This document shows, piece after piece, positions 44,825-52,797 of a DNA stretch of 64,000 nucleotides. The position numbers and the translations under genes are program-made. Each line of letters starts with the position of its first letter. The first letter of the stretch is position 1. Source of the DNA: Rhodobiaceae bacterium UBA4490 (lineage in GTDB: Bacteria; Pseudomonadota; Alphaproteobacteria; Parvibaculales; Parvibaculaceae); contig DGNO01000003.1 in assembly GCA_002389665.1 (NCBI GenBank), positions 62,001-126,000 of the forward strand. The letters run 5' to 3'. The notes beneath the pieces were generated by a model. The model did no database searches and was not told where the DNA came from. It saw only the letters and a program-made list of their open reading frames with translations.

Positions 44825-46650
44825 TGGCCGAGGAAGACACTTCCCGCGACTTCACCAGCAATATCGGCCGCATCTATCTCGTCTATACGGGCGGGTTCGC
44901 CGCTTTCGTGCTGTTTCTCGCCGCGCTCGAGCAGTTCGGCGTATCAAACCAAGTGATCGGCTATCTCTTCGTCTTCTTTACTCTCGCCATCTATGCCGGG
45001 ATCGGCATTCTCTCGCGCACCATGCAGGTGGGCGAATATTATGTGGCCGGACGGCGCGTGCCTGCGGTCTATAACGGCATGGCCACGGCCTCGGACTGGA
45101 TGAGCGGGGCCTCTTTCGTCGGCATGGCGGGCACACTTTATGTGCTGGGCTATGACGGGCTTGCCTTCGTCATCGGCTGGACGGGGGGCTATGTGCTCGT
45201 CGCCGTGCTCGTTGCCCCTTACCTGCGCAAATTCGGCGCCTATACGATCCCTGATTTTCTGGGCGCGCGGTATGGCGGGCATATGGCGCGCACGATCGGC
45301 ATTCTCATTCTTTTCTGCTGCTCTTTTACTTATGTGACCGCGCAGATTTATGCGACCGGCATCATTGCCTCGCGTTTTTTGGGTATGAGTTTCGAGCTTG
45401 CGGTCTTTGTCGGCCTGCTCGGCATTCTCGTCTGCTCCATGCTGGGGGGCATGCGGGCCGTGACCTGGACGCAGGTTGCCCAATATATCGTGCTCATCGT
45501 TGCCTATCTCGTGCCGGTCATTTTGCTCGCGCAAATGACGACGGGCGTGCCGGTGCCGCAGGTCATGTATGGGGAAATCCTGCAGGAGATCACGGCGCTC
45601 GAAACCAGCCTTGTCGAAAAGGGCCTTGCGAAAGCCTCCGAAATCACACCGCATCTTCAGCCTTATTCGAGCTATGACACGCTGAACTTCTTCGCGCTGG
45701 TGCTCTGCCTGATGGTGGGCACCGCCTCGCTGCCGCATATTCTGATGCGCTATTTCACCACGCCCAGCGTCAAGGACGCGCGCCGCTCGGTGGGTTGGAG
45801 CTTGCTTTTCATCTTTTTTCTTTATTTCACGGCGCCTGCCTATGCCGCCTTTGCGAAGCTCGAGATTTATCAGAACGTCATCGGCGCCCCGCTCGAAGAA
45901 CTGCCCGGCTGGATTTACACCTATGGCCAGATCGGGCTTGTTAAAATCTGCGGCATCGAGGCAACGACACTGGAAGCGGTGCGCGCCGCCTGCCTTGCCA
46001 AGGGCGATACGACGGGCATTCTGTCCTTCTCGGATTTTTCCATCAACCGGGACGTGATCGTCATTGCAACGCCGGAGATTGCGGGCCTGCCTTATGTGGT
46101 GGCCGGGCTTGTCGCAGCGGGCGGGCTAGCCGCCGCACTTTCCACAGCGGACGGGCTGCTGCTCGCCATCGCCAATGCGCTCAGCCACGACATTTACTAC
46201 CGCATGGTGGACCCGAAAGCCTCCACCAAGCGCCGGCTCATCATCGCCCGTGTCATGCTCGTGGGCGTCGCCGGCCTTGCGGCCTGGGTTGCTTCCACAA
46301 AACCCTCCGACATTTTGTCCATGGTGGCCTGGGCCTTCTCGCTTGCCGCAGCCGGGTTCTTTCCCGCCCTGGTGCTCGGCATCTGGTGGAAACGCGCCTC
46401 GGCGGCGGGCGCCATTGCGGGCATGGTGAGCGGTTTCGGCCTCACGCTCTTTTATCTCATCGCCACGCAATATGGCGGCATGACGCCGTGGCTTGGCATT
46501 CAGAACATCTCAGCGGGCATTTTCGGCATGCCGCTCGGCTTTGCCGTGACCTGGGCCGTCAGCCTGATGACCGCGCCGCCCTCGCCCAAAACCGAAGCGA
46601 TGATCGAGGCGATCCGTGTGCCGAAAGGCGGCACCTATATGGATAAGTAG
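44824..46650 (+). CDS. Sodium:solute symporter (VC_2705 / ActP-like)
   Basis: A 608-residue inner-membrane symporter of the SSS family with about 13 hydrophobic segments. GEYYVAGRRVPAVYNGMATASDWMSGASFVG in outline is the family hallmark, together with GGLAAALSTADGLLLAIANALSHD. Related proteins take up acetate or other short monocarboxylates with Na+. It is translationally coupled to the DUF4212 gene and followed by the YggT-like gene after 4 bases. Acetate use would fit the neighbouring acyl-CoA enzymes; this is inference. Confidence 0.92.
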   Translation: MAEEDTSRDFTSNIGRIYLVYTGGFAAFVLFLAALEQFGVSNQVIGYLFVFFTLAIYAGIGILSRTMQVGEYYVAGRRVPAVYNGMATASDWMSGASFVGMAGTLYVLGYDGLAFVIGWTGGYVLVAVLVAPYLRKFGAYTIPDFLGARYGGHMARTIGILILFCCSFTYVTAQIYATGIIASRFLGMSFELAVFVGLLGILVCSMLGGMRAVTWTQVAQYIVLIVAYLVPVILLAQMTTGVPVPQVMYGEILQEITALETSLVEKGLAKASEITPHLQPYSSYDTLNFFALVLCLMVGTASLPHILMRYFTTPSVKDARRSVGWSLLFIFFLYFTAPAYAAFAKLEIYQNVIGAPLEELPGWIYTYGQIGLVKICGIEATTLEAVRAACLAKGDTTGILSFSDFSINRDVIVIATPEIAGLPYVVAGLVAAGGLAAALSTADGLLLAIANALSHDIYYRMVDPKASTKRRLIIARVMLVGVAGLAAWVASTKPSDILSMVAWAFSLAAAGFFPALVLGIWWKRASAAGAIAGMVSGFGLTLFYLIATQYGGMTPWLGIQNISAGIFGMPLGFAVTWAVSLMTAPPSPKTEAMIEAIRVPKGGTYMDK

Positions 46651-46654
46651 TCCC

Positions 46655-46969
46655 ATGTTCGGCGGCTATGCAGCTTATCATCTGGGTAATTACGCCCTTG
46701 CCGTCCTCATGTATATGATGCTGGCGCGGCTGCTCCTTTCCTTCTTCTTTGCCGAGGAAAGCCGGCAGGTGATCTGGGTTGCTACGCGCCAGCTCACCCA
46801 GCCTTTCATCGCAGCGGTTCGCGTCATCACGCCGGGCTTCGTCATCCCCAAAGCCTTGCCGTTCATCGCCATTTTCTGGCTGGCGCTGGCACGGCTTCTC
46901 TTCTGGATATTGATGGCGGATGCCGGTCTTGCGCCGAGCCTCTCCGACGTTGCGCCTGCGCCTGGTTGA
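46655..46969 (+). CDS. YggT-like small membrane protein
   Basis: A 104-residue protein with two membrane helices, ALAVLMYMMLARLLLSFFF and FIAIFWLALARLLFWILMA, and between them VTRQLTQPFIAAVRVITPG-like residues (read in the protein as ATRQLTQPFIAAVRVITPG), a pattern of the YggT family. Function unknown; YggT is linked to osmotic or cell-division phenotypes elsewhere. The ATG at 46655 follows the symporter stop by 4 bases and is thus in the same operon. Confidence 0.75.
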   Translation: MFGGYAAYHLGNYALAVLMYMMLARLLLSFFFAEESRQVIWVATRQLTQPFIAAVRVITPGFVIPKALPFIAIFWLALARLLFWILMADAGLAPSLSDVAPAPG

Positions 46970-47011
46970 CATCGCCCCGCCTGCGGTCAACTATCCGGAT
47001 AAGGAGAAAAG

Positions 47012-47107
47012 ATGCTTCACGCCGTCACCATGATGATTGCTCTTATGTCGAGCTGCACTTTCTGCCCATCGGTGCCGGTGATGCGCGTGCGCGCGCCGTC
47101 CCCCTGA
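47012..47107 (+). CDS. 31-codon leader peptide candidate upstream of drug exporter
   Basis: A short reading frame, ATG 47012 to TGA 47105-47107, with the strong ribosome site AAGGAGAAAAG at 6-base spacing. The peptide starts MLHAVTMMIALMSS, has two cysteines in CTFC and ends VMRVRAPSP. Five of 31 residues are methionine. It has no database match that I can recall. One base after the stop begins GCAAAGCC (47109-47116), which can pair with 47148-47155 inside the following terminator. The arrangement suggests a regulatory leader peptide rather than a functional protein; it could also be a small membrane-associated peptide. Confidence 0.6.
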   Translation: MLHAVTMMIALMSSCTFCPSVPVMRVRAPSP

Positions 47108-47142
47108 CGCAAAGCCTCTCCTCGTTTTCCGTTCGTTTCGAG

Positions 47143-47166
47143 AGCCCGGCTTTGCCGGGTTTTTTT
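47143..47166 (+). terminator. Intrinsic terminator / attenuator before the Bcr/CflA gene
   Basis: The stem CCCGGC-TTT-GCCGGG (47145-47150 with 47154-47159), extended by A43/G44 pairs, is followed by T at 47160-47166. It lies 40 bases before the exporter start. The segment GGCTTTGC (47148-47155) is perfectly complementary to GCAAAGCC at 47109-47116, giving a mutually exclusive alternative fold. Confidence 0.85.
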
Positions 47167-47205
47167 GTGTCTTGCGCTCTTTTCCTTCCGCTCAGAGAAA
47201 ACCTT

Positions 47206-48381
47206 ATGTCCTCACGCAGCGCCATTATCCTCGTTCTCGTTGCCGCCAACATGCTGGGCCTTGCGGCGACCGATCTTTATCTGCCCTCCCTGCCGTATCT
47301 GCCGGGCTTGCTCGGCACGACGGTGGAAGGGGCGCAGCTCACGCTCGTCTTCTTTTCCGCAGGCTTTGCCGTCTCGCAGATATTCATCGGCGCGATGGGC
47401 GATCTTTATAACCGGCGCTGGATTCTCCTGGGCTCGCTTGCCGTTTTCGTCCCCGCCTCCGCGTTTTGCGCCATGGCCGGAGACATTGCCGCGCTCAATG
47501 CCGCGCGGTTTTTGCAAGGGCTCAGTGCCAGTGCGAGCGCAGCGCTCACCGCGCCGATGATCCGGCAATATTTCGAGGAGCACCGCGCCGTTCATGCCAT
47601 GTCCGTTATCGGCGGCATCGATGCGGTCATCCCCGCCTTCGCGCCCATCCTTGGCGGCTGGGTTTTCACGCAATTCGGCTGGGAGATGAATTTCTGGATC
47701 GTTGCTTTTGCCGGCGGTCTGGTGCTCGTTGCCGGGTTGAAAGCGCTGCCCGACGATACGCCCGAAAGTCACGAAACCTCTTTATGGAGCGTGATGCGCG
47801 GCTACGGCTTTCTTTTCCGCCACCGCATCTTCCTTGCCTATTCCATCAGCCACGGGCTGGTGCTGGGCGGGCTTTTGGCCGTGGTTTTTTCCGCGCCGCA
47901 GCTCCTCAGCGCGCATATGGGCGGCGGCACGGCGGAGTTCGTCTATTGTCAGATGATCTGGGTCGGGCTTTTTCTCGCTGCCGCGCAAGGCACCGGTTAT
48001 TTAAGCGCGCGGATGGGCGCGGACCGGCTGATCCTGCTCGGGAGCGGCTTTCAGGCCGCCGGCGCGTTGACGGCGCTTACCTATGCGTTCCTTGCAAGCC
48101 AGCCGCACTGGCTGGGCTTCGCGCTCTCCTGCGCGCCTTACATGATGGGGATGGGTCTGCGCGGCGGAGCCTGCTTTGCTCAAGCGCTTGCCGCGGTGCC
48201 GGCCCATGGGGCGCGGGCTTCCTCGCTCATTCTCTTTTTCTCGATGGGGTTCATCGCGCTCGGCACCGGCCTTGCCGCGCCCTTTCTCGAAGGGGGTATC
48301 GGCGTTGCGGGCGTAGCGCTCGGCGCGGGCGTTCTCCTCAGCCTAGCAGCACTCTTGCCGCTGCGGGCGCGGGCGGCTTAA
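47206..48381 (+). CDS. Bcr/CflA family MFS multidrug exporter
   Basis: A 391-residue major-facilitator transporter with 12 predicted helices. The opening MSSRSAIILVLVAANMLGLAATDLYLPSLP (shown in part) and the motif A-like GDLYNRRWILLGSL are typical of the Bcr/CflA drug-resistance group. Members export bicyclomycin, chloramphenicol and in E. coli cysteine. The ATG at 47206 follows CAGAGAAAACC. It sits directly behind the leader-peptide candidate and its terminator. It overlaps the convergent antiporter gene by 4 bases. Confidence 0.92.
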   Translation: MSSRSAIILVLVAANMLGLAATDLYLPSLPYLPGLLGTTVEGAQLTLVFFSAGFAVSQIFIGAMGDLYNRRWILLGSLAVFVPASAFCAMAGDIAALNAARFLQGLSASASAALTAPMIRQYFEEHRAVHAMSVIGGIDAVIPAFAPILGGWVFTQFGWEMNFWIVAFAGGLVLVAGLKALPDDTPESHETSLWSVMRGYGFLFRHRIFLAYSISHGLVLGGLLAVVFSAPQLLSAHMGGGTAEFVYCQMIWVGLFLAAAQGTGYLSARMGADRLILLGSGFQAAGALTALTYAFLASQPHWLGFALSCAPYMMGMGLRGGACFAQALAAVPAHGARASSLILFFSMGFIALGTGLAAPFLEGGIGVAGVALGAGVLLSLAALLPLRARAA

Positions 48382-52422: not shown

Positions 52423-52497
52423 ATCCGCCTCGACGATGAAACCGGCGTCGCCACAGCGGAACCCCGCATCCCCAAGCTCACCCGGCCCGGAGCGGAC

Positions 52498-52656
52498 GAC
52501 ATGACGGCAGGTTTCCTGGCTTACGGGTCTACGCCCTTGCGCCTGCCTTCCCGGCCTCTGGCCAGTGGCAATGCGGCGCGGGCTCGCCGTTCACAGTTGC
52601 GGGGACAGCTCCGGCATTCCCGGATTCCCTTTTACCCCCTTGCGGGGCACCGTCGC
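52498..52656 (-). promoter_or_regulatory. Cobalamin riboswitch controlling btuFCD
   Basis: On the minus strand the conserved blocks appear in order: GGTGCCCCGCAAGGGGGTAAAA, GGGAATCCGGG, GGAGCTGTCCCCGCAACTGTG, CCACTGG, GGGAAGG and the B12 box GCCAGGAAACCTGCCGTCA at 52502-52520. Nothing like a T-run terminator follows, so control is probably at translation; a weak pairing of 52444-52447 with the ribosome site region 52426-52429 is possible. Confidence 0.92.
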
Positions 52657-52797
52657 GGCGCAGTCTAGTGCGCGGGCGGGCAAGATGCAAAAGAAGCCTT
52701 TGCCCTCATTTCGTGAGGAAACTTGACGCGAGGGAACGCTTTCCCGCGCCCCGCCCCGAGGCTAGGCTTCCTTAAGAAACCCGATGGGAGGCGGAAG

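Follow-up and report, generated by a model that had tools for sequence, protein, structure and literature searches.

What lies between a putative drug exporter gene and its upstream neighbour in the window (the whole stretch of 64,000 nucleotides that was analysed), and could it decide whether the exporter is transcribed? The first-pass annotation had read this interval as a ribosome-mediated attenuator; its positions for the short ORF and for both pairing arms were correct to the base, direct reading confirmed the perfect complementarity of the arms, and translation reproduced its count of five Met and two Cys. All features of the leader lie on the + strand. The leader ORF (47012-47107; 31 codons plus TGA) runs from the ATG at 47012 to the TGA at 47105-47107, is preceded by a Shine-Dalgarno sequence, AAGGAG, at 47001-47006, and encodes the peptide MLHAVTMMIALMSSCTFCPSVPVMRVRAPSP, for which no Pfam match was found. 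One base past the stop, the 5' arm of the antiterminator (segment 2; GCAAAGCC, 47109-47116) is the exact reverse complement of the 3' arm (segment 3; GGCTTTGC, 47148-47155), and the latter is common to the antiterminator and to an intrinsic terminator (segments 3:4; 47140-47166), for which the terminator scan gave a stem at 47140-47164 and a T-run to 47166. The promoter-like site upstream (46966-46994) combines a -35 box, TTGACA, at 46966-46971 with a spacer of 17 bases and a weak predicted -10 box, AACTAT (3/6), at 46989-46994. Its predicted transcription start near 47001 is close to the Shine-Dalgarno sequence, and the exact 5' end of the leader transcript is therefore uncertain. A stricter promoter scan returned no promoter upstream of the window's leader ORF. 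At gathering score, Rfam matched no known leader or riboswitch in 46900-47210 and gave four matches elsewhere in the window. A cobalamin riboswitch (RF00174, 113.3 bits) was present at 52489-52669 on the - strand.

The gene behind the leader (47206-48381, + strand; 391 aa) is, by its profile matches, an MFS protein (DHA1) with Bcr/CflA as the nearest group. It matched Pfam MFS_1 (PF07690) with 118.5 bits against a cut-off of 33.4, and its best NCBIfam model, TIGR00710 (Bcr/CflA), scored 165.8 bits, below the cut-off of 200.9; NCBIfam cmlA_floR also matched below its cut-off. The first-pass name "Bcr/CflA exporter" thus stood as to the best model and the MFS family, and fell short of the threshold of the Bcr/CflA model itself. 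That the gene exports drugs is suggested by its family. The upstream neighbour (46655-46969, + strand; 104 aa) had a weak YGGT match (PF02325, 21.9 bits, cut-off 27) and lies outside the switch; its stop codon is contained in the -35 box TTGACA.

Orthologs of the exporter were collected with profile searches in 40 genomes of the order (every one from a single family), 385 genomes of the class and four of family f121, three sets that overlap. At a cut-off of E < 1e-140, 13 orthologous exporters were found: that of the window, seven in genus g3 of the same family (G003-G009), one in G011 of genus g4 and four in f121 (G159, G262, G347 and G420). The count leaves out five second exporters in tandem (E 1e-107 to 1e-105) and the exporter of G204 (5.5e-76), whose upstream stretch carried no visible leader. 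When the window exporter was the sole query against the named-genome contigs, no relative was found; a query built from an alignment of eight of nine orthologs (without L027) returned seven loci, namely six orthologs and a weak Bryobacter match. The tandem second exporters (L069-L073) belong to five g3 genomes, are 43-44% identical to the exporter of the window and lie directly behind the first; the leader of these genomes may control both.

Ten of the 13 orthologs shared one plan, in which a TTGAC-type promoter, an ORF of 26-31 codons, a short purine-rich arm at its stop codon and a terminator, CCGGYTTTGCCGG, beginning 28-38 bases past the leader stop were followed by the exporter. The carriers were the window, G004, G005, G347, G420 and a clade of five g3 genomes (G003, G006, G007, G008 and G009) whose near-identical leaders make up one of the six leader types. 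These leaders span two families and three genomic neighbourhoods, and their peptides have diverged: the other five types read MCGFQNMYLESAVGACKPVVRSCAPPK, MCGRMNNKCEMIGMPMPVPVPLVPSA, MCGQIINLRTPVIDMSMPSARVCVTPSP, MTCVSFMSDCVTRVFLAPACTRAAMTD and MTGIILRADYLLRVLVVPACTRAAPLH, with an alternative in-frame ATG possible four or five codons farther upstream in the last two. In G011, G159 and G262, no leader was seen when the 450-500 bases upstream of the exporter were read by eye. The gene upstream of the leader is YggT-like in the window, another in g3 and a third in f121, the latter two told apart by eye rather than by family search. Because the upstream genes differ among leader carriers, the leader travels with the exporter and not with the neighbourhood, and the recurrence at the same place before 10/13 orthologous exporters rules out chance. 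The conserved short ORF and pairing expected by the first-pass annotation were thus found in these ten, with a near-constant register between stop codon and arm and a varying ORF length. In G039 (L078), a genome of the window's genus, the leader has gone along with almost the whole exporter, and the flanking YggT-like and Kef-like genes are 97% and 96% identical to those of the window. By eye, an apparent C-terminal remnant of the G039 exporter follows TTGACATCG, beside the -35 region. The upstream gene of the five-genome clade and of G005, a different one, likewise ends in the -35 box (TTGACT), whereas that of G004 does not.

A promoter-like site lay directly upstream of the ORF in all ten leaders, with TTGAC followed by A, T or G, and a spacer of 17 bases in nine and 18 in one. 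In the 75 bases past the terminator, the best promoter-like site scored below the upstream one in 10/10. A clear Shine-Dalgarno sequence was visible by eye in three of the six types (window, G005 and G004). A hairpin and T-run stood between leader ORF and exporter in every leader, and the hairpin core was nearly invariant in an alignment of all ten; the bases from arm to terminator were mostly unconserved outside the five-genome clade, and the first in-frame ATG of the exporter lay 18-52 bases past the T-run in the nine leaders measured. Within the five-genome clade, the ORF had eight synonymous and four to five nonsynonymous base changes, the latter confined to three codons. With 75% nonsynonymous changes expected, 4/12 corresponds to a p of 0.003, a synonymous bias that points to purifying selection on the leader peptide of the clade.

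The mutually exclusive antiterminator was strong in five of the six leader types and weak and bulged in the sixth. Its arm was GCAAAGCC in the window, G347 and G420, GCAAGACC in G004, GCAGAACC in G005 and GCAAACC in the five-genome clade; the terminator arm GGCTTTGC accompanied GCAAAGCC, and GGTTTTGC accompanied the others. Three types have G-C at pair 6 and the other two strong types A-U, changed on both sides (by eye), and one G-U pair each occurred in G004 and G005 and one bulged base in the five-genome clade. The arm started exactly one base past the stop in 5/6 types; in the sixth it shares one base with the stop. In the five strong types, 0.15-0.69% of other sites at the same locus equalled the pairing energy, whereas the bulged pairing of the five-genome clade (-6.6 kcal/mol) was equalled at 14-19%. 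Of 6578 pieces of 15 bases, taken every 3 bases along the + strand over 20 kb of the window, 41 matched or exceeded the post-stop piece in pairing with the terminator arm. The energies of antiterminator and terminator hairpins differed by no more than 2.5 kcal/mol in the five types (-16.1 and -14.2, respectively, in the window), and the antiterminator of the five-genome clade (-5.3 to -6.7) was far weaker than its terminator (-15.2). The pairing and the hairpin energies bear out the earlier proposal that terminator and antiterminator exclude each other, strongly in those five types.

Shuffling of the post-stop piece, run with the terminator arm one base short, gave p values of 0.04-0.08 for the five strong types and 0.13-0.26 for the five-genome clade, and in the MAFFT alignment 88.9% of cells were paired compared with 25-51% when slid. 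Covariation, scored by pair counts on a MAFFT alignment of ten leaders that misplaces the G005 row, was no better than in shuffles, 200 of 500 of which reached it; a realignment limited to five of the ten left G005 misplaced and was set aside. Linker shuffling did not support an inner antiterminator helix shared by the leaders, reaching significance in 1/10. The consensus scan of 46600-47300 found one terminator and shuffles gave 1.1, showing that the window terminator by itself is unremarkable; the fold of 46990-47206 had a z of -1.83. A terminator by itself places no demand for the arm. A further helix between the start region and the post-stop stretch (1:2) was kept out of the claim, since its results outside the five-genome clade were mixed. 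In that clade TGTGGTTT pairs with AAACCACA, equalled at 2-7% of other sites; for the remaining five types a shorter stretch was equalled at 10-79%, with shuffle p values of 0.024 in the window, 0.011 in G004, 0.009 in G347, 0.18 in G420 and 0.56 in G005.

The effect of ribosome position was modelled by masking 15 bases either side of the first base of the P-site codon, with equilibrium folding rather than kinetics and an RNA that ended just past the 5' arm of the terminator. In this model, the mask on codon 1 left antiterminator pairing at 0.72-1.0 in 10/10 leaders, and the last codon in the P site reduced it to 0 in 10/10. The stop codon is thus placed, as modelled, for a ribosome to cover the antiterminator arm. 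Free RNA gave values from 0.00 to 1.00 across leaders; the window (0.84) and G005 (1.00) paired strongly in this state, indicating that an untranslated leader would also read through there. Modelled pairing was low at most middle and later codons in G006, G007, G009 and G420, so that mainly early stalls would switch the exporter on in these genomes. It was possible over much of the ORF in G003, G004, G005, G347 and the window, and intermediate in G008. The low mask values of the clade accompany the start-region helix of TGTGGTTT with AAACCACA.

The best explanation, probable on strong comparative evidence, is that the leader is a ribosome-mediated transcription attenuator. A promoter just upstream would produce a leader RNA carrying the short ORF. 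If the ORF is finished normally, the ribosome at the stop would cover 47109-47116, the terminator would form and the polymerase would halt before the exporter. If the ribosome is held earlier, the arm would be free to pair with the emerging 5' arm of the terminator, and transcription would enter the exporter. A translation inhibitor that the exporter may remove could cause such an early hold. The leaders themselves show their layout, how far it is conserved and that the two pairings exclude each other; from this we infer that the leader is translated, that ribosome position matters and that control runs in the direction given. The attenuation reading of the first-pass annotation gains support from the 10/13 orthologs and from the near-constant stop-arm register despite varying ORF and peptide. 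As to the signal, the simplest guess, by analogy with bmrCD and mef(E), is antibiotics that slow translation generally.

A more specific signal is possible, if doubtful: the nascent peptide could bind a ligand (of macrolide type at MRVR, or metal or thiol-reactive through Cys) and thereby arrest the ribosome. This would be a special case of attenuation, with ErmDL, MefAL and CruR for comparison. The window peptide ends in VMRVRAPSP, in which MRVR resembles the MRLR of ErmDL and MefAL; ErmDL (MTHSMRLRFPTLNQ) and MefAL (MTASMRLR) carry the +x+ macrolide-arrest motif (PMC10314930). Cys made up 13 of 166 residues in the six leader types compared with about 1% in two window proteins (p 2e-8), and an Arg stood 5-7 residues from the peptide end in 5/6 types (by eye). 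However, the +x+ motif (RVR) and CXXC were seen by eye in the window peptide and in none of the other five types, RAPP or RGPP, the mark of arrest peptides such as CruR and ApdP, appeared in no leader type (RAPS in the window and CAPP in the five-genome clade, by eye), and the start Met and one Pro were the only invariant residues in an alignment of seven of the ten peptides. Pro accounted for 19 of 166 residues in the six types and about 4% in the two window proteins. The Cys excess occurs in leader peptides that are otherwise diverged (window, L025, L030, L031, L076 and L079). With low probability, the leaders form an undescribed family of attenuators that sense drugs or stress in Gram-negative Alphaproteobacteria, in which Cys-rich peptides with R-V-x-x-P-like ends might sense a compound on the ribosome and induce its exporter.

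The Cys enrichment, together with a Cys at codon 2 or 3 in four of six types, would also suit cysteine-tRNA attenuation, in which a shortage of cysteine slows decoding of the Cys codons, keeps the ribosome early in the ORF and switches on the exporter. This is improbable: the window's Cys codons 15 and 18 gave pairing of 0.81 and 0.59, not above the value for free RNA, and at the single Cys of the G420 leader (codon 20) pairing was 0. The exporter is not known to be tied to a lack of cysteine.

There is similarly little chance that a stand-alone small-protein gene, or a terminator-derived sRNA, happens to precede the exporter with incidental complementarity. An ORF with its own promoter-like site and terminator, and a peptide under purifying selection in one clade, would fit such a gene, and the alphaproteobacterial attenuator peptide peTrpL, which acts in trans (PMC7298713), was counted in its favour. 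However, the arm holds its register with the stop codon, and all ten leader copies precede this exporter. The pattern GCARRRCC..CCGGYTTTGCCGG was found in 5/40 family genomes, three times in an exporter leader and twice at a site that lacks a T-run; CGCAAAGCC..CCGGCTTTGCCGG and a looser T-run form were each found in 2/385 class genomes, both exporter leaders. No leader away from this exporter was detected in these 40 family and 385 class genomes with the patterns, which target this arm rather than attenuators generally and leave out the form of the five-genome clade. A peptide query in the 40 family genomes recovered its own copy (9e-16), with all further matches at 0.017 or worse; the known g3 leaders were missed as well, showing that this search says little about further copies. 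Translation attenuation of the exporter, with the leader controlling access to the start site and not termination, is very improbable. In its favour, the lowest-energy fold of the window pairs the Shine-Dalgarno region of the leader with bases upstream of the exporter start, and cmlA, from the same broad group of MFS exporters, is described as being regulated so by a leader of 9 aa (PMC8876359); against it stand the canonical intrinsic terminator that separates leader from exporter in 10/10 and the z of the window fold, only -1.83.

If transcription attenuation holds, an attenuator kept before an MFS exporter across two environmental families of Alphaproteobacteria would mean that the strategy is more widespread. 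The leader would also give an inducer screen for the exporter, and its six diverged types would be material for finding which features matter. Known leader-peptide attenuators of drug efflux are mostly from Gram-positive bacteria or from resistance cassettes on mobile elements. In trp-type attenuators, the ribosome at the leader stop covers the antiterminator arm and permits the terminator to form. The window system differs from these in lacking a run of codons for one amino acid and in having an exporter as output; the start-region/post-stop helix of one clade may play the part of the trp-type 1:2 hairpin.

Ribosome-mediated attenuation of efflux genes is already known: a review lists it for mef/mel, bmrCD and a Listeria ABC transporter gene and, acting by translation, for cmlA (PMC5418344). 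We found no description of this leader in the open-licence literature on CflA leader peptides, these genera and alphaproteobacterial efflux, and within that literature it is apparently undescribed. CruR and the RAPP arrest uORFs resemble the present leaders in Cys, in a C-terminal end rich in R, A and P and in regulation of a downstream gene (PMC9426467; PMC12992588). However, CruR is a 145-residue DUF2946 protein that uses Rho (PMC9426467; PMC12992588), and the leaders here are without RAPP. In the cmlA system, too, a short leader peptide precedes an MFS exporter, one from the broad group of the window's exporter, but control is exerted at the start site of that exporter instead of at a terminator (PMC8876359). 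In Bacillus subtilis, bmrB-bmrCD has a translated leader ORF and alternative stem-loops, and reads through once ribosome-targeting antibiotics slow the leader, a behaviour that is a proposal here; its terminator lies inside the leader ORF, its output is an ABC transporter and its promoter is under AbrB (PMC4191407). The mef(E)/mel and msrD systems of streptococci are alike in leader peptide, intrinsic terminator, anti-attenuator and MFS efflux output (PMC4335068; PMC10314930), and their leader peptide shares the MR-x-R motif with that of the window. They differ in belonging to Gram-positive mobile elements, in an 8-codon leader within a 327-base region and in a response to macrolides that has been shown, whereas the leaders described here are found in alphaproteobacterial genomes, have 26-31 codons and place the stop codon next to the antiterminator arm.
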